From an uncultured Bartonella sp. (GTDB taxonomy: Bacteria; Pseudomonadota; Alphaproteobacteria; Rhizobiales; Rhizobiaceae): DNA of 40,796 nt. Shown one piece after another: positions 5,120-37,316 of the stretch. Numbering within the stretch: position 1 is the stretch's first letter; each line of letters opens with the position of its first letter. The stretch spans positions 1-40,796 of the forward strand of contig CAMLLT010000005.1 in NCBI GenBank assembly GCA_946480935.1, written 5' to 3'. The notes under the pieces are model-generated. The model was not told where the DNA came from and did not search any database. It saw nothing but the letters and a program-made list of their open reading frames with translations. The position numbers and the translations under genes are program-made.

Positions 5120-5569
5120 TTAAAAAAGGCCTAAAATTGGCTTGAGAGCGGCGATTGAGGCTGCGTCAATTCCTGATTTGGTGTCAGTCGAAAAAAATGA
5201 AGGCGATTGGCCGGATTCAAAAAACGACATTTCGACTTCTGCCAGGCCGCCGACCTCGCGTCTTTCATTTGTGTTATAGCTTTCACACTGCACCATGCCT
5301 GAAAAACCGGTCGGCAAAGACAAAAATCCGGGCGTTGGTTCGTCAAGTGCTCGTACGAGAGAATTTCGCAATGAAATAAAATCATCGCCTAAAACATATC
5401 CCATAACGGTAAAACGTTTTAACCGTTGCCCCATGTTTTCGACAAAGCCGTTATCGCTTTTCGGAAATTCATGCAAAACAAGCCGTTTTCCGCCGGATTT
5501 GCTGCCAATTTCGACGTGAAAAACCACGCCACGAAAGGATGCCGGCACTAATTCATCACGCCATGACAT
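5120..5569 (-). CDS. Mu gpN-like DNA circularization protein, N-terminal domain
   Basis: 149 aa; 'ELVPASFRGVVFHVEIGSKSGGKRLVLHEFPKSDNGFVENMGQRLKRFTVMGYVLGDDFISLRNSLVRALDEPTPGFLSLP'. Confidence 0.85.
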   Translation of the reverse strand: MSWRDELVPASFRGVVFHVEIGSKSGGKRLVLHEFPKSDNGFVENMGQRLKRFTVMGYVLGDDFISLRNSLVRALDEPTPGFLSLPTGFSGMVQCESYNTNERREVGGLAEVEMSFFESGQSPSFFSTDTKSGIDAASIAALKPILGLF

Positions 5570-27389: not shown

Positions 27390-27599
27390 ATGGACGAAGC
27401 TTTTATTATTCCGCCTGTTCCAGCAGCGGCTTTAGCTATGAGAAGAATTATTTCGGAAGAGTTTGCCAAAGGTTTAACTTTTAAGCGTATAGCCAAAGAA
27501 ATGCGTGTCGACGTTTCTACCGTTGTAAAATGGTTCAATGGAAGCGAATTTCCAGATAAAAAAACATTGAAAAATATACGTTTTTTGCTGAATAAATAA
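27390..27599 (+). CDS. Small HTH protein
   Basis: 69 aa; 'EEFAKGLTFKRIAKEMRVDVSTVVKWFNGSEFPDKKTLKNI'. Confidence 0.65.
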   Translation: MDEAFIIPPVPAAALAMRRIISEEFAKGLTFKRIAKEMRVDVSTVVKWFNGSEFPDKKTLKNIRFLLNK

Positions 27600-27643: not shown

Positions 27644-29863
27644 TCAATCATACAGGTATCTATACCAGATAGCCGATGGGCCACGTGAGCTTTTTACTTC
27701 TTCTTTTTCAATCTGCCCACTATCGCACATTGATGCTATTATATCTTTCAAATCTCGAGCACGAATTGAATTGTGCAACGACCGCACCAGATTGCGATAG
27801 CTCATTCGGCCAGAATGATTTTTGAGCGTTCTAAGTATTTTTTGCGCGTTTGCCTGGTTTTCATTATCCGACATATAATCAGCCGCTCCTGCAAGCATTA
27901 GCTTGGCAGATTGGCTGGCTAGTTTTATACCATATTCCATATCTTTTTTATATATTTGATCGCTTTCAAGCCTACCGATGGCAATAATGGTGGCAATACG
28001 CAAAGCCATCTCTGCCGTTCTGGCGTAAAACGATGCGATCTCTGGCTCCTCTTCTATTTTTTTTGAAATCTCATCTGAAAATTTTTTGTAAGTTTCATGC
28101 GAGCCATCAGGGCACCAGTTCATCAATATGATTTTTTCGGCGGCCGCAGGGTCTATTGTTGCATCATCGCGAAAACTTGTCGCTAATTCGCCTAGCCGAT
28201 TATAAATCTTTTTTAATTTATCAATTATTTCAGATGGAACCTTGGTCGGGTCAACGGCTGGATCAACTTCCCTAACATTGTTTTGACCAGAAAGCATCAA
28301 AAAACGGTTGAGTGTTCCGTTCTCAATATTCGCTGCTTCCATGGAGGAATAAAACTGTTCAGGTGTTGAAGTCCCGTAAATTGTTATGGCTGGACAAAAA
28401 ATAGTAACGCTTTCCTTGCTTGCCCACTCCGGTGTGACGAAAGGTGCAAAGGAAGACGACCATAATGTACGTAGTACTTTTGATATAGCTGCTTCAAAGC
28501 CGGAAGCGCGTTTGGAATTAATACGTTTCATGAAATCGCCGAATTCATCCATCACACAAATGGATAAGGGTTTTCTCGTCAAAAAATTAATAACCGCCGG
28601 CATTGATATAAATTCGGACGGTCCGATATGACGTGTGGCCCCAGCCTGCCCCATGATGCGCATTATTTGCTGAAGCGCATGATCTTTTCCTTTGCCTGTG
28701 CCAGCCAGTCCCAGCACATATAAATGGGTTGCGGATCTGGTCGGTCCTGCAAATAACCTGCCGGCAAAGGTTCCCACAATGCTTATTGCCGCCCCAATAG
28801 CCAATTCCGGCTGTGGAAACCGTGCAGTTGAAACAATCCATTTCGCTATATCACCGACCAATCCCGGTGGATATGGCAAAGACGCTGTTTCCTTTTCTGG
28901 TTCTTTTTTTAAAGAGATTACTTCGCCTGTCTTTGAATCTATTAGAGTTCCGTCAATGTCTTCAAAGATTTTGCGCGTTTCGGATAAGTTTGGCAAAGGT
29001 CTTGGCTTGTTCTTTCCTGCTTTCAAGCCTGAAACAATCGTTTTCTTAGCTTCATCTGAACCAAGTCCTGTTGAAATAGCTGCATCCATTAATTGGTCGA
29101 ATATTTGATTTTCATCTATCCAACGGGAGCCGACAAGCTGACCAAGCGAAAAGGCAGCCTCGTTCAAGGTGTTATTGCGTTCGCCTTTGCCTGCACTTGC
29201 CACTTTGCCAACTTCATTTTCAATGGCGGCTTTGCAATAAGCATCCAATTGCTCATTTTTTGTTTGGACTGTTATATCCACTTTTATTGGAGCCGTTGTT
29301 GTATTTTTATTTTTTTGTGGTTCCTCATTGTCGATTATTGTAACGAGCCAATCCGGGACAATAGGGATATTGTCTAAATCACCAGATAATTCGTAAGCCC
29401 GCCCGTCCGACATGATTGTTCCCGGCGCGATTACGTAACCACCAGCGCCCCGAACATCTATACCAGCAGGCAACCCGCCGCGTTTGTTCCCTCGAGCTTT
29501 ATCGCTTTTTTGTTTAAAATAAACATGCATACCGTCGTTTGGTGTGGCAACAAGTGGCGATTGGTCTATGTCATATTGATGTTCGTTACATAACGAGCCA
29601 AAAAGCGCGACGCCGTCATCAACCGAATGCCGGTCGCAATCAATGACTAGTAAATTTGATTTGGCTAAATCCAAGCCAATTGCAGCGGTTGGCCATTTTT
29701 GCCACCAAATATTGATTTGATTGATATCGGTCGTCGAAACGTCGCGCCATTTAATAAAAGGCATAGGCTGCTTTATTTGTTTTCCGCCTGACTGACAGGG
29801 AAAAACAGAGAAGCCGAGCGATGCTAGCTGTAACGCCGTTTTGATGTTAGTGGCTTTATTCAT
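27644..29863 (-). CDS. Bifunctional primase-polymerase / DUF3987-type helicase replication protein
   Basis: 739 aa; Prim-Pol N-terminus 'LASLGFSVFPCQSGGKQIKQPMPFIKWRDVSTTDINQINIWWQKWPTAAIGLDL...LLVIDCDRHS'; C-terminal ATPase 'VLGLAGTGKGKDHALQQI'. Confidence 0.9.
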   Translation of the reverse strand: MNKATNIKTALQLASLGFSVFPCQSGGKQIKQPMPFIKWRDVSTTDINQINIWWQKWPTAAIGLDLAKSNLLVIDCDRHSVDDGVALFGSLCNEHQYDIDQSPLVATPNDGMHVYFKQKSDKARGNKRGGLPAGIDVRGAGGYVIAPGTIMSDGRAYELSGDLDNIPIVPDWLVTIIDNEEPQKNKNTTTAPIKVDITVQTKNEQLDAYCKAAIENEVGKVASAGKGERNNTLNEAAFSLGQLVGSRWIDENQIFDQLMDAAISTGLGSDEAKKTIVSGLKAGKNKPRPLPNLSETRKIFEDIDGTLIDSKTGEVISLKKEPEKETASLPYPPGLVGDIAKWIVSTARFPQPELAIGAAISIVGTFAGRLFAGPTRSATHLYVLGLAGTGKGKDHALQQIMRIMGQAGATRHIGPSEFISMPAVINFLTRKPLSICVMDEFGDFMKRINSKRASGFEAAISKVLRTLWSSSFAPFVTPEWASKESVTIFCPAITIYGTSTPEQFYSSMEAANIENGTLNRFLMLSGQNNVREVDPAVDPTKVPSEIIDKLKKIYNRLGELATSFRDDATIDPAAAEKIILMNWCPDGSHETYKKFSDEISKKIEEEPEIASFYARTAEMALRIATIIAIGRLESDQIYKKDMEYGIKLASQSAKLMLAGAADYMSDNENQANAQKILRTLKNHSGRMSYRNLVRSLHNSIRARDLKDIIASMCDSGQIEKEEVKSSRGPSAIWYRYLYD

Positions 29864-29897
29864 AATAGATAATTGTTCTTAAAAATTTTCAGCAAAA

Positions 29898-30251
29898 TCA
29901 GAAGGGTGCGCAGTCTTTTAAATCTTCCTTCAACGCACGCCGGTAACCGGCAATAATACGACGCCCGAACTCAAACCATTCGTCTTTCGTCAAATCAGCC
30001 AGGTCTGTTTTTTTGATTTCGTCCAGAAAAGCGCCGCCGGCTTCTAAGCCTTTGCCGCTAGCCAAACTTTCAAGCCGGCTAAAATCATCTTGCTTCATTT
30101 CGTAGGTATCCCTTGCTATTTTTATGCATTCTGCATCGTCACAAATCCAAATTATTTTCGAACCGTGATGTCCTGGGGTGGCACAATAACCAAAGCCAAC
30201 AGCAGACCGACCACAGACACCGCAAATCGCTGTTTCAAAACGATCAATCAT
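29898..30251 (-). CDS. DUF6511-like zinc-binding protein
   Basis: 117 aa; 'CGVCGRSAVGFGYCATPGHHGSKIIWICDDAECIKIARDTYEM...TDLADLTKDEWFEFGRRIIAGYRRAL'. Confidence 0.75.
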   Translation of the reverse strand: MIDRFETAICGVCGRSAVGFGYCATPGHHGSKIIWICDDAECIKIARDTYEMKQDDFSRLESLASGKGLEAGGAFLDEIKKTDLADLTKDEWFEFGRRIIAGYRRALKEDLKDCAPF

Positions 30252-30254
30252 TGT

Positions 30255-30449
30255 TCACCACCGATATTTTGTGTCGCTTTGAGAAACTAAACGTATTTCG
30301 CCTACTCTCTCTGCCATTTTTAAACAAACCGGATTGTCGCAAATCCAAACAGCTTCCATATTATGGGGGTCTGAAGTGTCGCAATAACAAATTCTAGTGG
30401 CCGGTTGACAACAAAAGCCACAAAGGTGTTTTTCAAAACGTCTAATCAT
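30255..30449 (-). CDS. Truncated paralogue of the DUF6511-like zinc-binding N-terminus
   Basis: 64 aa; MIRRFEKHLCGFCCQPATRICYCDTSDPHNMEAVWICDNPVCLKMA aligns with MIDRFETAICGVCGRSAVGFGYCATPGHHGSKIIWICDDAECIKIA. Confidence 0.7.
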   Translation of the reverse strand: MIRRFEKHLCGFCCQPATRICYCDTSDPHNMEAVWICDNPVCLKMAERVGEIRLVSQSDTKYRW

Positions 30450-32067
30450 TTACAGCCTCTTTTATTTCGTTTTGATCTTCATGAGAAAAACCGACCACAT
30501 CGTAGTATTTCCCGTTTTTTTTCACGCTTATTGCCGCCGGTTTTTGAAGCTCGTTTGTGCGCGAAATTGCTTCAGTTATGGTCTTCGGGAAAGGCATTTT
30601 GCCTCCATGCTGCAACCACCATTGGCGCGCGACCAAGCCGGCTTGCCCTTCATGTTCTAAGGCGACCCATTGATAATATTCGCCAATTCCAGCGATATAG
30701 GTGACTTTTAAGCTGTCAGGGCTGTTTTGTTTCTCGTGCCTAGAAAAACGCCAATTTATGACCGGTAAAACCGTTGGTTTGATTTTTTCGGTCGAAAGAA
30801 TTCCATATTTATTTTCGGCGGTTGCATCATAATTGGCTTTTTCAATTTTGGGCCATTCGTAACCACACCATTTACAATGGGTGGCTGCTAATCCGACCAA
30901 TTCGCCGCATTCTGGGCATGTCTTTGCACGCACATCAGTAACGCGAACTTTTCCATCACTTTTCTTGGGCAGTACGAAAACATCGTCGACTGGACCATGC
31001 CGGCGGATATTGCCGGCAAAATCAAGCACCAGACAATTTTCTTTTCCGGGCGACAAACGCGTTCCACGGCCGACAATTTGCAAATAAAGGCTGGTCGATA
31101 ATGTTGGCCGCAACATAGCTATGCAGTCGACATTTGGCGCATCAAAACCGGTCGTTAAAACATTCGCATTGGTAAGCGCACGGAGTTCGCCGCTTTTAAA
31201 GCGTCTAATGATGGAATCTCGAGCGGCCGTGTTTGTCTTACCTGTAACTGCTTCGCATCTTATCCCTTGTTTGCAAAATTCTGCTGCAACGTTTTTTGCA
31301 TGGTCAACACCTGAACAAAAAACAAGCAAAGATTTCCGAAACCGCGCTAAAGAAATTATCTCGCTTACAGCGGCAGCTGTGATCTTATCCGCTTGTGTCG
31401 CAAGCTGTCCTGCAACAAATTCGCCACCTCGACGCTCAACATTTGAGACATCTATTTCTTTTATTGACGCTTTAGAAATCAGAGGAGACAAAAAACCATC
31501 CGCAATGCCAGCGCGTATATCGTACTGAAAAACCGTTTTATCAAACAGCCGATCATCACCAGCATCAAGACGCCCTGAATCCAGCCGAAACGGCGTTGCA
31601 GTAAATCCGGCAACGCGTAAATTTGGTTCTTGTTTTTGCAGGCTTTCAAGGAAGTTACGATACATTCCTGTCGCTTTTTTGGGAACCAAGTGCGCCTCAT
31701 CAATAATGACCAAATGCCGTGGGCCGATTTGTTGCGACCGGCGAAAAACTGATTGGATAGAGGCAAAGATAACGCGTTGATATGTGTCACTTTTGCCAAG
31801 GCCTGCCGAATAAATACCGACGGGCGCTTCAGGCCATATTTTCAAAAGGGCGCTAAAATTTTGAGCAACAAGTTCTTTAACATGAGTTAAAATAACTATT
31901 CGCATTGATGGAAAATTATCAATTATTTTTTTCGCCAAAGCGGCAATTACCAGGCTTTTCCCTGTGCCTGTCGCCATTTCCACTAATGGGTTTCCACTTT
32001 TTGGGCTTGCCCAATAGTTGAAAATGCTATCAAGCGCTTCCTGCTGATAGTGGCGCAAATTTATCAT
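30442..32067 (-). CDS. SF2 DEAD/DEAH-box helicase
   Basis: 541 aa; 'LVEMATGTGKSLVIAAL' Walker A, 'IIDEAHLVP', 'TTGFDAPNVDCIAMLRPTLSTSLYLQIVGRGTRLSPGK'; C-terminal CPECG..CKWCG zinc ribbon. Confidence 0.95.
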   Translation of the reverse strand: MINLRHYQQEALDSIFNYWASPKSGNPLVEMATGTGKSLVIAALAKKIIDNFPSMRIVILTHVKELVAQNFSALLKIWPEAPVGIYSAGLGKSDTYQRVIFASIQSVFRRSQQIGPRHLVIIDEAHLVPKKATGMYRNFLESLQKQEPNLRVAGFTATPFRLDSGRLDAGDDRLFDKTVFQYDIRAGIADGFLSPLISKASIKEIDVSNVERRGGEFVAGQLATQADKITAAAVSEIISLARFRKSLLVFCSGVDHAKNVAAEFCKQGIRCEAVTGKTNTAARDSIIRRFKSGELRALTNANVLTTGFDAPNVDCIAMLRPTLSTSLYLQIVGRGTRLSPGKENCLVLDFAGNIRRHGPVDDVFVLPKKSDGKVRVTDVRAKTCPECGELVGLAATHCKWCGYEWPKIEKANYDATAENKYGILSTEKIKPTVLPVINWRFSRHEKQNSPDSLKVTYIAGIGEYYQWVALEHEGQAGLVARQWWLQHGGKMPFPKTITEAISRTNELQKPAAISVKKNGKYYDVVGFSHEDQNEIKEAVND

Positions 32068-33014
32068 TTTCCACCTCCATCAACCCATTCTTTGTTATCT
32101 TTCAGAAGACGATAAGTGATCGTTTCCTTTTTTTCGTCGGCATCGATTTGTTCACCGGGAACCAAGGACGGTAAAAATAAGTGATGCGGGCAGCCTGCTT
32201 TTTGGTCTTTTGTATCTAATTTTATGTTCAGCCGCTCACACTGCCAACCACCGGCAGCCATTGGTGTAGAGTGTACGCATGTTCGACAATTCCTTATTGC
32301 AAAATCATTCTCGTGGCATATTTTGAACGCCGGACAATTATATGCTTTGCAGATGTAATAGTTGGGATCGTCGGATACACGCGCCGGTTTTTCGTTTGTA
32401 TTGACAATACGTTCCGCTTTGCCAAGCAATGCTAGTGCATGAGCTGCATCATATTTTACGCGTTCTGTGTAAAGTTCGTCGTTATCTTTACACTTCGCAA
32501 AATAAAGCGCGCGTGTAAGACCGAGCAGATGCATATATATTTGCATTTGCGCAACATGATCCGGCTTAGCAACCGCAACGCCGTGTTTTTGTAGTTGCTT
32601 AAACGACGCGAGTGAATGCGTCTTGCACTCCAATAAATGCTTTGTTTTTTCAGCACCGGGGAGCCCTTCTAATATAATGCCGTCGGCAAAGCCTTTTAGA
32701 TGTCCGTCGACGGCAATAACCATCCATTGCCGGCCTGTTGCTGGGTCATTTTCTGCAACATTTACGCCAATGTCCTTCAACCAGCCGATCATGCGGGTTT
32801 CTTCAAGTTTGCCTGTTTCCAATAGCCGTACAAGGCGGCCATTATTTTTTTGAGGTAAACATGCCCATCTGAACCTGTAAAAAATATTTCTTTCGCAAGC
32901 ATGGCCGATCATAGAAGCACCAATCGACACAGAAAAATTCGGCTGATATTCGGCTGCTTTCTTCTCGTCGATCAACATTGGTATAGAATTAGGCAATGCA
33001 GGTATTTCCACCAT
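32064..33014 (-). CDS. PD-(D/E)XK (RecB/Cas4-like) nuclease-family protein
   Basis: 316 aa; 'GHACERNIFYRFRW', 'GFADGIILEGLPGAEKTKHLLECKTHS', 'HVAQMQIYMHLLGL', C-terminal Cys cluster. Confidence 0.8.
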   Translation of the reverse strand: MVEIPALPNSIPMLIDEKKAAEYQPNFSVSIGASMIGHACERNIFYRFRWACLPQKNNGRLVRLLETGKLEETRMIGWLKDIGVNVAENDPATGRQWMVIAVDGHLKGFADGIILEGLPGAEKTKHLLECKTHSLASFKQLQKHGVAVAKPDHVAQMQIYMHLLGLTRALYFAKCKDNDELYTERVKYDAAHALALLGKAERIVNTNEKPARVSDDPNYYICKAYNCPAFKICHENDFAIRNCRTCVHSTPMAAGGWQCERLNIKLDTKDQKAGCPHHLFLPSLVPGEQIDADEKKETITYRLLKDNKEWVDGGGK

Positions 33015-33025
33015 GATTTTTGCCT

Positions 33026-33352
33026 TTACTCAAATGATATTTCGCGCCGTTCTGTACGTAACGTTTTGGTTATCGTTGTCGGGCGGCGATATTTATCAAT
33101 ATCGATGCCATCATTTTTCATTTTATCCGTATCCACCGGACCAGCACGGGTGGCGGTAATCAGGTACGCGATATTTTCGTCACCCCCCACGGAAGTTGAT
33201 TTTTCAGCATCCATTTTTTCCAAGATTTTATTCCGCAAAAAATCTTCTTGTTTTTTTAAACTTTTGATTTTTTCACGAATGTCGGACAGTCTGTCTACAT
33301 CGGAGCGATTAGACATAGATGTATCGTTCATTGAACCGGTTCTCCCTGCCAA
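33026..33352 (-). CDS. Hypothetical protein with predicted coiled coil
   Basis: 108 aa; 'DIREKIKSLKKQEDFLRNKILEKM'; in operon. Confidence 0.6.
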   Translation of the reverse strand: MAGRTGSMNDTSMSNRSDVDRLSDIREKIKSLKKQEDFLRNKILEKMDAEKSTSVGGDENIAYLITATRAGPVDTDKMKNDGIDIDKYRRPTTITKTLRTERREISFE

Positions 33353-33390
33353 TGTGTTGAAATGACTAAAGTTTTTTGATTTTTATTTAA

Positions 33391-33918
33391 TTATTTAGTG
33401 TGCCATGGCAGAGGCTTCGCGCCACCGGTGCTTTTGCTTTGCATGGCGTTGGTAGCAGGCTTTGTTTGCATTCCGGCTGCTGGTGCATGCTGTGTTGGAG
33501 TGTTATCAACTGCATTTAAAGCATAATAGTTTTTAATGTGGTTTGATGCACCGTATTGCGGATCGTTTTTAATATTTACTGACAATCTGCATGGAATTTG
33601 CAGCAATTCATCCGTTTCTGCAACAGCCCCGACGCCCAGCGCTTCGCGAATAGCGGCAAAGCGGGAATTGGCAATCTGGATCACTTTATTAAGATTGTTC
33701 ATGCCTTCAGGCCAGAGATTAATACGATCGAACAAAAGTCGGCCGTTATAATCGTCGTCTTGAATTTCCCATGTCAATTTAAGACAACGACCATAATCAT
33801 TGTTTTTACTAATGTTGACAATTTCCGCGTCAATAATTTTGCCTGTATAATCGCCAGCTGTCAGTGGTTCAAAACCCGCGCTTGGTGTTGCAGCAGTATC
33901 GTATTGTTCAAGTCTCAT
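33391..33918 (-). CDS. DUF669 family phage protein
   Basis: 'GFEPLTAGDYTGKIIDAEIVNISKNNDYGRCLKLTWEIQDDDYNGRLLFDRINLW' matches DUF669. Confidence 0.85.
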   Translation of the reverse strand: MRLEQYDTAATPSAGFEPLTAGDYTGKIIDAEIVNISKNNDYGRCLKLTWEIQDDDYNGRLLFDRINLWPEGMNNLNKVIQIANSRFAAIREALGVGAVAETDELLQIPCRLSVNIKNDPQYGASNHIKNYYALNAVDNTPTQHAPAAGMQTKPATNAMQSKSTGGAKPLPWHTK

Positions 33919-34727
33919 TTTTGCGGTTCCTTGTTTGCTTCAGTTTTGTTTTCGTTGCTTGGAAAGTATTTGGCAAGTTCGGTGTAGCCTTGCCCTTTAA
34001 TGTACCGAATACTGGCCGGCATGTTGTACCGGTTTTTCGCCGTAAAGGCGGGGCGACCGGTGGTATTTATTTCGATCACGTTGCTATTGCCAGAAGCAAC
34101 CGCTCGGGTGTTGGAAAAACCTATGTTCTCTTGTTTAATTGTTACCGGTTGTTTCAAAAGGAAAATTGCATCCATTTCGCGTTCGAGCAGCCCACAGCTT
34201 TTACCGTGCAAGTCAATTTCGTACCGGTCGTAGGAAACCGTTTCTGGATCGTCGAAACGTTCGATTGTCGAGTGTGCGATCAGAACGATTGTCATGCCTT
34301 TGTCGGCTCTCAAAGCGTTAATGCCGTCGAGAAATTCTTGCCACACGCGAAGCGCATATACATAGCCCTTACCGTAGCCGAAGTCTTCAATGTTGGTTTT
34401 CGGGTTACCTTTATCATCTCCACGCGCGCACGTTTCAGCAAAAACCAGTTTTTGCAATTCAGTCACACTGTCTACAACCACTGTCTTATAATCGTGTTCT
34501 TCTGTGTAGAGCACGCCAAGTGCTTCTATGAGCTGTTGAAACGTATCAATTTTGCCGAATGACGTTAGCTCGACACCGGCTGGGGTACCGTCTTCTATTT
34601 GAAGAAAAACGGGTGAAGGGAATTCACTTGCCAATGTTGTTTTGCCAATGCCTGCCGGACCATAAATCAAAATCCGAGGCGGTTTATCGGCATGTACTTT
34701 TTTTAGACTTGCTAAGCTTAAAGCCAT
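33915..34727 (-). CDS. AAA/RecA-like ATPase (Sak4-type recombination protein)
   Basis: 'PPRILIYGPAGIGKTTLASEFPSPVFLQIEDG' Walker A; 'TVVVDSVTELQKLVF' Walker B. Likely start at 34727 (MALSLASLKK). Confidence 0.88.
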   Translation of the reverse strand: MALSLASLKKVHADKPPRILIYGPAGIGKTTLASEFPSPVFLQIEDGTPAGVELTSFGKIDTFQQLIEALGVLYTEEHDYKTVVVDSVTELQKLVFAETCARGDDKGNPKTNIEDFGYGKGYVYALRVWQEFLDGINALRADKGMTIVLIAHSTIERFDDPETVSYDRYEIDLHGKSCGLLEREMDAIFLLKQPVTIKQENIGFSNTRAVASGNSNVIEINTTGRPAFTAKNRYNMPASIRYIKGQGYTELAKYFPSNENKTEANKEPQK

Positions 34728-34732
34728 TTTGT

Positions 34733-35167
34733 TTACCCTTGTTTTAGTTGCGTTTTTTGAAAAATCCATGTGCCCGTCGCTCCGCTGTCGTGGGCTGTTG
34801 GATTAAAAAGTAATTTAATTTGTTCCGAAGCCGGGCAAACACTGATGTGCGCTTGTCCTGAAATATTGGGGAGCCAAGCGACTGCCAGAGCGGTTACATA
34901 GCGGTCGTCGCGAATGATCGCAGCTTTGACGATCACATCCAACAGCGCCTTAATACGGTTGTCGACATCAGAACGTCGAGACGCACGTTCAAGCCCCATA
35001 ACGACAATGACATTTCCATTAATCGCTTTAATCTTTTGACGGTGCAGTTCATTTAGCGCGTTAATAATAAAATCATTATATTTTTTTGATTTTACACGCC
35101 CGCGTCCTGGTACATTACGAAAAAGGCTGTTAGTGCTTGGTGGCACCGGCAAAACAAAATTTATCAT
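34733..35167 (-). CDS. rusA: RusA-family Holliday junction resolvase
   Basis: 144 aa; 'FVLPVPPSTNSLFRNVPGRGRVKSKKYNDF...RSDVDNRIKALLDVIVKAAIIRDDRYV'. Confidence 0.9.
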   Translation of the reverse strand: MINFVLPVPPSTNSLFRNVPGRGRVKSKKYNDFIINALNELHRQKIKAINGNVIVVMGLERASRRSDVDNRIKALLDVIVKAAIIRDDRYVTALAVAWLPNISGQAHISVCPASEQIKLLFNPTAHDSGATGTWIFQKTQLKQG

Positions 35168-35481
35168 TTTGTCACCGCTCTTTCGTGTACCGCTTGAATA
35201 TTTTTCAAGCCAGCATCAATGTAATATCCAGCGCCGGTGCAGAAGCGAATTACAACGTCCGGTACTCTTGCCCGCAGTCGTGAAATTTGGATTTTAATGA
35301 TTGTTTTTTTCTGTGTTGGAGTTTTAACCTTTTTAGAACAATTATTAGGCATCGCGTCGGTGTATAGTTTTTGTGCAGACCATATTTTACCGTCTGACAA
35401 ACAAGCCAAAATTCGCGCTTGTTGCGGCGACAATTTGTAAGCACGTTGTAAATTAATTGAAAACATCGTGGTGTTTGGCAT
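35164..35481 (-). CDS. OmpR-type winged-helix protein
   Basis: 105 aa; 'LSPQQARILACLSDGKIWSAQKLYTDA...KKTIIKIQISRLRARVPDVVIRFCTGAGYYID'. Confidence 0.7.
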   Translation of the reverse strand: MPNTTMFSINLQRAYKLSPQQARILACLSDGKIWSAQKLYTDAMPNNCSKKVKTPTQKKTIIKIQISRLRARVPDVVIRFCTGAGYYIDAGLKNIQAVHERAVTK

Positions 35482-35486
35482 TTTTT

Positions 35487-35690
35487 TTATTTATCTTTTT
35501 TTCGCAAGCAAATCATTCTATGCGTTGGGCAATAACTAACATTTTGGCTGCCTGTTGGCTCTCCGCAGACAAGAGAATTTGGTGTAAAATCTTTTACATT
35601 TTGCCATAGTGGAAATTTACATTGACCAGGCAAAGCAGATAGATATTTTACTCCCCTAATAAAATTTGTATTATTACCAATGTTATTCAT
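35487..35690 (-). CDS. GcrA C-terminal-domain-like mini-protein
   Basis: 67 aa; 'CKFPLW...LVCGEPTGSQNVSYCPTHRMIC' matches the C-x-W/F-P ... CG ... YC-x-x-H pattern of GcrA C-termini; no N-terminal HTH. Confidence 0.7.
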   Translation of the reverse strand: MNNIGNNTNFIRGVKYLSALPGQCKFPLWQNVKDFTPNSLVCGEPTGSQNVSYCPTHRMICLRKKDK

Positions 35691-35956
35691 TTATTCACTC
35701 AAACGGTTTGTAAAAAATAAAAATTAGAAAAAATGTAAACGACTTGATATATTTTTTATTTTGTCGATTTCATTTGTTAATAAAACGTATACATGGTGTT
35801 AACCATATTTGCAACAACTTTTTTCAATTAAAAAAAATTGTGCTACAAAAAAATACAAGCAATGAGAGTGGTAATGTAAATGTAGGTGTTGACGTATTGA
35901 CATAAATGTTTACACATTTTGACAACAATTTTTAAACGCAGACGGGAAGAAAAAAG
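35691..35956. promoter_or_regulatory. Divergent immunity switch region with palindromic operator candidates
   Basis: AAATGT-TTAC-ACATTT (35904-35919) and ATGGT-GTTA-ACCAT (35793-35806) between repressor and leftward early operon. Confidence 0.6.
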
Positions 35957-36607
35957 ATGACAAAAATAATCGATAATGAAGTTGACGTAAAATGGGTCAA
36001 AGAAAAAATGAATGCAGCTGGCATACGCTCGTATGCCGAGCTAGGGCGGAGAAGCGGGATGATGCAACGTACGTTAATTACGCTTGTCCTGCAGGGGCAA
36101 CGAAACATCCAACAGGAAAATTTGATAAAAATGGCAGAAGTGCTGAAAGTTTCGCCTTTTGATCTTGCTGAAAAACTCGGTGGGCGAACTTATAATTTTT
36201 TGTCTGCTTTGAAAGACATGGAAGCGAACGAAAAGTTAGAGGTACGCGGTTCAATTGACGATAACTTTGCTATTCATTTTTATGAAGCTAGGCATTTCAA
36301 AACAATTAATACAGACATAAAAACACCCGCTGGGAGTTATGGGCTGGTTTATGATATAAAAAACAATCCGGAGACTATATTTTCTGATTCCATAGCGATC
36401 GCGTTGGAAAAACGAGAAGCACCGACAACAATGATGTTGAAACGAAACAATATCGTTTGGCTGGCAGATGGGCGCGTTTTATTAAGGCATGTAGTTTCCG
36501 GTCAATTGCGAAATCGTTTCGATATTTTTGGTGCTAATATGCCGCCGTTATACGACGTAGAAATTGTCGCTTTTTCACCTATCCAGTTTTTAGCTGTGAC
36601 ACTATAA
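35957..36607 (+). CDS. XRE-family phage repressor (CI-like)
   Basis: 216 aa; HTH 'SYAELGRRSGMMQRTLITLVLQGQRNIQQENLIKMAEVLKVSPFDLAEKL'; divergent from the leftward operon. Confidence 0.85.
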   Translation: MTKIIDNEVDVKWVKEKMNAAGIRSYAELGRRSGMMQRTLITLVLQGQRNIQQENLIKMAEVLKVSPFDLAEKLGGRTYNFLSALKDMEANEKLEVRGSIDDNFAIHFYEARHFKTINTDIKTPAGSYGLVYDIKNNPETIFSDSIAIALEKREAPTTMMLKRNNIVWLADGRVLLRHVVSGQLRNRFDIFGANMPPLYDVEIVAFSPIQFLAVTL

Positions 36608-36798: not shown

Positions 36799-37316
36799 AT
36801 GATAAATGTTAGACCAATTAAAACCGCTGCTGCTTACGTTGGCGGAAAACATAAACTTGCCAATCGTATCGTTAATATGATCAATGAAATCAACCACAAA
36901 TGCTACGCAGAACCTTTGGCGTGTCATGTGATAGAGGCAGTCGTTTTGATATTCAAAAACTCGCCCCTGTTCTTAAAGATATTCAAGCCCGCCTTGCAAG
37001 TGTCGTAATTGAAAACCTTGATTGGATTGATTTTATCGACCGATATGATCAGGCAGAAACACTTTTTTATATAGATCCGCCATATTGGGGCACTGAAAAA
37101 TATTATGGCTCAAACTTGTTTAACCGCGCTCAATTTGCGCTTATGGCCAAACGGCTAAACAATATTGATGGGTATTTTATAATGTCGATCAACGACGTTC
37201 CAGAAATTAGGAAATTGTTTGAAGGATTTAAAATAACTGAAGTAGCCACCACATATTCGCTTGGTACTAATAACGCTCACAAGGCAAGCGAGTTGATCAT
37301 CACAAATGCGTGTTAG
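36799..37316 (+). pseudogene. D12-class DNA N6-adenine methyltransferase, internally deleted and frameshifted
   Basis: Frame 1 'AAAYVGGKHKLANRIVNMINEINHKCYAEP'; frame 2 (from about 36900) 'RTFGVSCDRGSRFDIQKLAPVLKDI...TLFYIDPPYWGTEKYYG...'. The middle part of the enzyme is absent. Confidence 0.8.

Follow-up and report, generated by a model that had tools for sequence, protein, structure and literature searches.

A stand-alone protein resembling the sigma-interacting domain of GcrA is encoded by the first gene of a prophage early operon

Introduction

GcrA of Caulobacter crescentus (PF07750; PDB 5YIX, 7YE1 and 7YE2) uses its C-terminal sigma-interacting domain (SID, residues 108-173) to bind sigma2, and it promotes the formation of open complexes at methylated promoters (PMC7403470). 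Homologues are found in phages, among them phiCbK, RHph_X2_24 and Atu_ph08, and an action on host transcription has been proposed for those of the phiCbK type (PMC3556154). In the literature that we searched, phage GcrA homologues figure solely as copies of a cell-cycle regulator of the host, and we found in it no description of what the small phage proteins named 'GcrA cell cycle regulator' do.

Other proteins act on sigma factors as well. Crl, an activator of sigmaS, is a stand-alone protein that binds sigma2 and makes no contact with DNA, while the phage sigma repressors AsiA, Gp39 and P7 take over the host sigma/RNA polymerase at sigma4, not sigma2 (PMC7403470).

Here we describe P0001, the product of ORF 35487-35690 (minus strand) of a prophage. 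Like the phage proteins above, it is a phage-borne SID homologous to host GcrA, but the phiCbK-type GcrAs are full length and carry a helix-turn-helix (HTH), whereas P0001 does not.

A prophage early operon starting with a SID gene

The window analysed is a whole contig of 40.8 kb, which carries a prophage of the contractile-tailed type, with genes for tail sheath, portal, terminase and integrase. The first gene of its leftward early operon (35487..35690, minus strand) encodes P0001, a 67-aa stand-alone GcrA-SID-like, probable zinc protein of sequence MNNIGNNTNFIRGVKYLSALPGQCKFPLWQNVKDFTPNSLVCGEPTGSQNVSYCPTHRMICLRKKDK. Five bp further on lies the gene for P0002 (35164..35481, minus strand), 105 aa long, with a weak match to the OmpR/Trans_reg_C-type winged helix (wHTH) and a candidate partner of P0001. 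It overlaps by 4 bp the next gene, which encodes a RusA-like Holliday junction resolvase (34733..35167, minus strand). The remainder of this replication/recombination operon (27644..34769, minus strand) encodes a Sak4-like annealing ATPase, an SSB-like protein, a Cas4-type exonuclease, a helicase, a primase and small unknowns. On the other side of the P0001 gene, an AT-rich intergenic gap of 266 bp (35691..35956), assigned as the early promoter/operator region and devoid of GANTC sites, separates it from a divergent gene for an HTH_3 (CI-like) repressor of 216 aa (35957..36607, plus strand). An earlier reading of the sequence only had taken the two ORFs for the first two genes of a leftward early operon; the coordinates and the minus strand are as it gave them, and the operon is borne out by the close-set minus-strand genes that follow and by the diverging repressor.

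P0001 is homologous to the C-terminal domain of GcrA

Residues 24-57 of P0001 (35520..35621, minus strand) form, as read from the sequence, a zinc core C24-x17-C42-x11-C54-x2-H57 (CKFPLW...CGEP...SYCPTH). This is the Cys/Cys/Cys/His core of the GcrA SID: the CxWP...C...YCxxH pattern of the C-terminal zinc/sigma-interacting domain of PF07750 is present, with CxFP in place of CxWP. A profile was built from 11 full-length GcrA and phage-GcrA SIDs, in an alignment redone with P0001 and its homologue left out, and was run against every stop-to-stop ORF in the window that reached 30 aa. P0001 scored 23.0 bits (E=1.6e-6 within this set of window ORFs), compared with 7.8 bits for the second-best ORF and 13.2 bits for the highest of 20,000 composition-preserving shuffles. 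Adding other stand-alone SIDs to the profile, with P0001 still left out, raised the score to 33.7 bits (E=7.4e-10); a score of 66 bits was discounted, as P0001 itself was in that profile. The Pfam GcrA model aligned to P0001 over its C-terminal part (profile positions 109-148 of 155) with 13 bits and E=0.13, which is under the gathering cut-off of 26.9 bits.

In an alignment of 58 phage and cellular SIDs, C24, C42, Y53, C54 and H57 were invariant, but the viral rows had been gathered with a pattern demanding those same residues, so that the unbiased support for the invariant ligands comes from a separate alignment, in which these residues are invariant too. Two motifs of cellular GcrA, GDP after CxWP and A-x-x-P after the zinc core, are absent from P0001, and its contact residues may therefore differ. 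Loss of GDP is common in phages: C.WP.GD was kept in 41 of 182 phage SIDs among the matches listed, and phage GcrAs with a DNA-binding domain (DBD) are likewise mostly without it. The closest SID among the matches listed is that of L230, a 123-aa phage GcrA with an N-terminal DBD/HTH, which shares GQCKFPLW with P0001 and is 44% identical over 36 aa.

The AlphaFold2 model of P0001, made with an input alignment of 57 viral SIDs, was confident, with a pLDDT of 82.7 and a pTM of 0.66. Searched with Foldseek against 350,542 PDB chains, its top match was chain B of 5YIX, the SID chain in a complex of Caulobacter GcrA with sigma70 domain 2; the scores were modest (prob 0.82, TM 0.67 normalised to target length, E=0.41). 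GcrA accounted for three of the five PDB matches in all (5YIX, 7YE2 and 7YE1); Crl was not among them, and no match of AsiA, Gp39 or P7 to P0001 was seen. The top matches among viral models (BFVD) were phage proteins named 'GcrA cell cycle regulator' (prob 0.99), the first of them 77 aa long. Since the alignment given to AlphaFold2 was made of SIDs, the fold agrees with homology but is no independent proof of it. The homology of P0001 to the GcrA SID is supported, and the Cys/His pattern on which the sequence-only reading had founded its assignment to the GcrA C-terminal domain thus stands up to a leave-one-out profile and to comparison of a predicted fold with GcrA-SID structures, the best PDB match being a GcrA SID, at the modest scores given above.

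P0001 lacks the DNA-binding domain and its gene is under selection

P0001 has only 23 residues ahead of its first Cys, and the N-terminal HTH of GcrA (WTdErv...R-N-A-V-I-G-K) is absent. With a profile of this N-terminal domain, no remnant was found beside the SID gene in any frame, which agrees with the earlier remark that the ORF has no room for an HTH. The SID is thus the whole short protein, with no HTH in the ORF or in an overlapping frame, as in stand-alone phage SID proteins. The sole weak match to the GcrA N-terminus in the window is a small HTH ORF of 69 aa at 27390-27599, 8 kb off and on the plus strand (E=0.011), a marginal likeness in a protein that is probably of the Cro/XRE type.

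A homologue of P0001, 78% identical, is encoded in prophage DNA of another genome, G073, next to the same neighbour (89% identical). Between the two copies dN/dS was 0.114/0.631 = 0.18 for the SID gene, with the zinc core unchanged, and 0.07 for the P0002 gene. We conclude that the SID gene is real and under purifying selection in the sister prophage. Direct searches of phage records and viral contigs with P0001 or P0002 gave no match. In a sample of the genus (71 species, genomes of 1.4-2.9 Mb), the weak matches (E 0.02-0.7) were not CxxP...YCxxH proteins, and the only match of a genome-contig search, in an Archaeoglobus MAG, is without YCxxH and was put down to chance.

P0001 therefore resembles Caulobacter GcrA in its core (CxWP...CG...YCxxH type), in its predicted fold and in the near-identical sigma70 region 2 of its host; it differs in having neither the N-terminal methyl-DNA-binding domain nor the linker, GDP and A-x-x-P, and in scoring under the Pfam cut-off. 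With no DBD and a sub-threshold score it is not a GcrA but a protein of the stand-alone SID type, which may act on sigma in the way of the GcrA C-terminus.

Stand-alone SIDs in other phages and genomes

Two pattern scans of viral contigs, which amount to a sample, yielded at least 229 SID-pattern ORFs. Among the matches listed, the start could be resolved in 213; at least 60 residues preceded the first Cys in 200 of these (a GcrA-type HTH being present in 191), and 13 had a shorter N-terminus. L217 and L227 were rejected as stand-alone SIDs, being frameshifted full-length gcrA genes, as was the off-family L095, and L144 and L281 were set aside as doubtful ORFs. Eight stand-alone SIDs were left among the matches listed (L092, L103, L127, L136, L142, L181, L187 and L313), one of which, L103, exceeds the Pfam GcrA cut-off with 35.1 bits, over the C-terminal part only. 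Further cases are WWT39834.1 of Mwe-JY07 and a 56-aa gene in genome G028, and some stand-alone SIDs are already databased as 'GcrA cell cycle regulator'. In the viral contigs sampled, stand-alone SIDs are a minority yet recurring form. P0001 is like A0A6J5LHS5 (UniProt, 77 aa), WWT39834.1 (75 aa, annotated hypothetical) and L103 (IMG/VR) in being a SID without a DBD, but the neighbours of their genes differ from those at the P0001 locus.

Several other arrangements were seen. At L077:5474-6132 (IMGVR_UViG_3300050175_000026), a gene for a GcrA-like HTH (Pfam GcrA 4-66, E=0.004) and a separate gene for a SID share an ATGA overlap, apparently a naturally split GcrA. The L192 ORF has a Rrf2/GntR/MarR-like winged helix instead of the GcrA DBD, with the SID near its C-terminus (Pfam GcrA 28.8 bits, C-terminal part). 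At L092:2727-3854, the stand-alone SID gene is flanked by a GapR-like gene and a gene with a DnaA_C domain; the one of Mwe-JY07 adjoins a gene for replication protein O. In Agrobacterium phage 7-7-1, a DUF2312 (GapR-like) gene lies directly 5′ of a GcrA-like gene. Finally, a bacterial contig (L074:3028-3621 and 5124-5432; G570:C22) carries a second, N-terminally truncated gcrA copy of 102 aa, 97.7% identical in DNA to the complete copy 2 kb away, which indicates that a SID gene without DBD can arise by duplication.

The neighbouring gene and alternative readings

The sequence-only reading described the neighbour as a small OmpR-type wHTH protein. A match of P0002 to Trans_reg_C (PF00486) exists (16.8 bits, E=0.007; 14.4 bits for the G073 homologue), which leaves the assignment standing as a weak likeness, but it is below the cut-off of 26.2 bits, and the AlphaFold2 model from this one sequence was poor (pLDDT 43.7). 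A profile of the two P0002 sequences found no convincing relative in the PDB.

That reading also proposed that the two genes are one regulator split in two, and we considered a two-chain GcrA-like activator in which the wHTH would pick phage promoters and the SID protein would hold sigma70. The 5 bp spacing, the joint presence in two prophages and the dN/dS values of 0.18 and 0.07 are what such a pair should display; the apparent split at L077 and the winged-helix fusion of L192 lend it indirect support, the SID gene of L092 has a GapR-like and a DnaA_C gene on either side, which speaks for partnering in general, and a BFVD match, the 'DnaA C-terminal' protein A0A6J5R6V5, has a model resembling the SID. 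Nevertheless, the pairing was found only in the window and in G073, two closely related prophages with 88% DNA identity over 9.8 kb. Since they share this region by descent, the common adjacency counts as a single event and the linkage is not independent. Among 149 further genomes from the same order none had a P0002 relative, the stand-alone SID loci examined elsewhere had no OmpR-type neighbour, and the winged helix of L192 is not similar to P0002. The wHTH assignment is itself sub-threshold, and in these samples conserved adjacency did not extend beyond the sister prophage; the split is not supported, and we regard the two-chain activator as unlikely.

P0001 could also descend from GcrA as a zinc protein that no longer binds sigma and has taken another partner, such as DNA, RNA or a replication protein of host or phage. 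The loss of GDP and A-x-x-P would fit, as would the stand-alone SIDs lying among replication genes in L092 and Mwe-JY07; on the other hand, core motif and predicted fold are kept, and DBD-bearing phage GcrAs mostly lack GDP too, so we give this reading only a small share of our belief, on a par with the preceding one. Much less credible still is that the gene is what decay has left of a once full-length gcrA in the prophage, with no function. Frameshifted phage gcrA genes such as L217 and L227 do exist and the Pfam score of P0001 is low, but the N-terminal half has left no trace in any frame near the gene, the operon spacing is clean, and the copy in the sister prophage has an intact zinc core at a dN/dS of 0.18.

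A proposed role at region 2 of sigma70

The reading that we favour, with confidence slightly above even, is that P0001 is an early phage protein docking on region 2 of RpoD, where it would compete with host GcrA or tune RNA polymerase. It builds on the homology, the predicted fold, the missing DBD, the operon position, the selection and the conserved target. P0001 would be a GcrA SID freed from its DNA-binding domain and the first product of the prophage early promoter once this becomes active. Its fold is most likely organised round one zinc ion, held by Cys24, Cys42, Cys54 and His57, and, like the GcrA C-terminus, it may dock on RpoD, the housekeeping sigma of the host, at region 2. The host has a full GcrA of its own, and its RpoD region 2 is almost identical to that of Caulobacter RpoD in 5YIX and 7YE1, so the presumed target exists. 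Without a DNA-binding domain P0001 cannot select promoters that carry m6A-methylated GANTC, and its simplest action would consequently be a global one on the pool of polymerase. By filling the sigma2 site it could displace host GcrA, releasing polymerase from GcrA/CcrM cell-cycle promoters; it might also, or instead, ease the opening of phage promoters in the manner of the stand-alone sigma2 activator Crl, an analogy of working only, as Crl targets sigmaS. Activation and competition are indistinguishable from sequence. The chief doubt on sigma binding comes from the missing GDP and A-x-x-P motifs, and it is softened by the loss of GDP in most phage SIDs.

If P0001 does bind sigma, the phage would possess, in a SID half placed first in its early operon, a takeover factor directed against sigma region 2, as opposed to the sigma4 targets of AsiA, Gp39 and P7. 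A broader and tentative idea, which we hold clearly less likely than not, is that the SID serves phages as a portable sigma70 clamp, alone, fused to a DBD or beside a DBD gene, redirecting host polymerase, and that here it might form a two-chain early activator with P0002. P0001 is also a minimal probe, 67 residues long, for asking if the SID of GcrA can by itself activate or inhibit transcription, a question that bears on the mechanism of GcrA itself.

Other features of the window

GANTC sites number 31 in the window, against about 125 expected. This observed/expected ratio of 0.25 compares with a mean of 0.39 in 16 segments of this genome and G073, where GANTC is about 2.5- to 4-fold under-represented genome-wide, in prophage and host segments alike; the idea of a phage-specific depletion was dropped for that reason. 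The host pieces sampled had a G+C content of 40-50%. Downstream of the repressor gene, 36799-37316 holds what appears to be a broken gene for an adenine methyltransferase of the Dam family (39 bits against TIGR00571, far under the cut-off), the putative frame of which seems interrupted. Finally, two adjacent small early genes (30255-30449 and 29898-30251, minus strand) are alike, with cross-matches of 40-43% identity to the sister prophage copies, and are likely a duplication.
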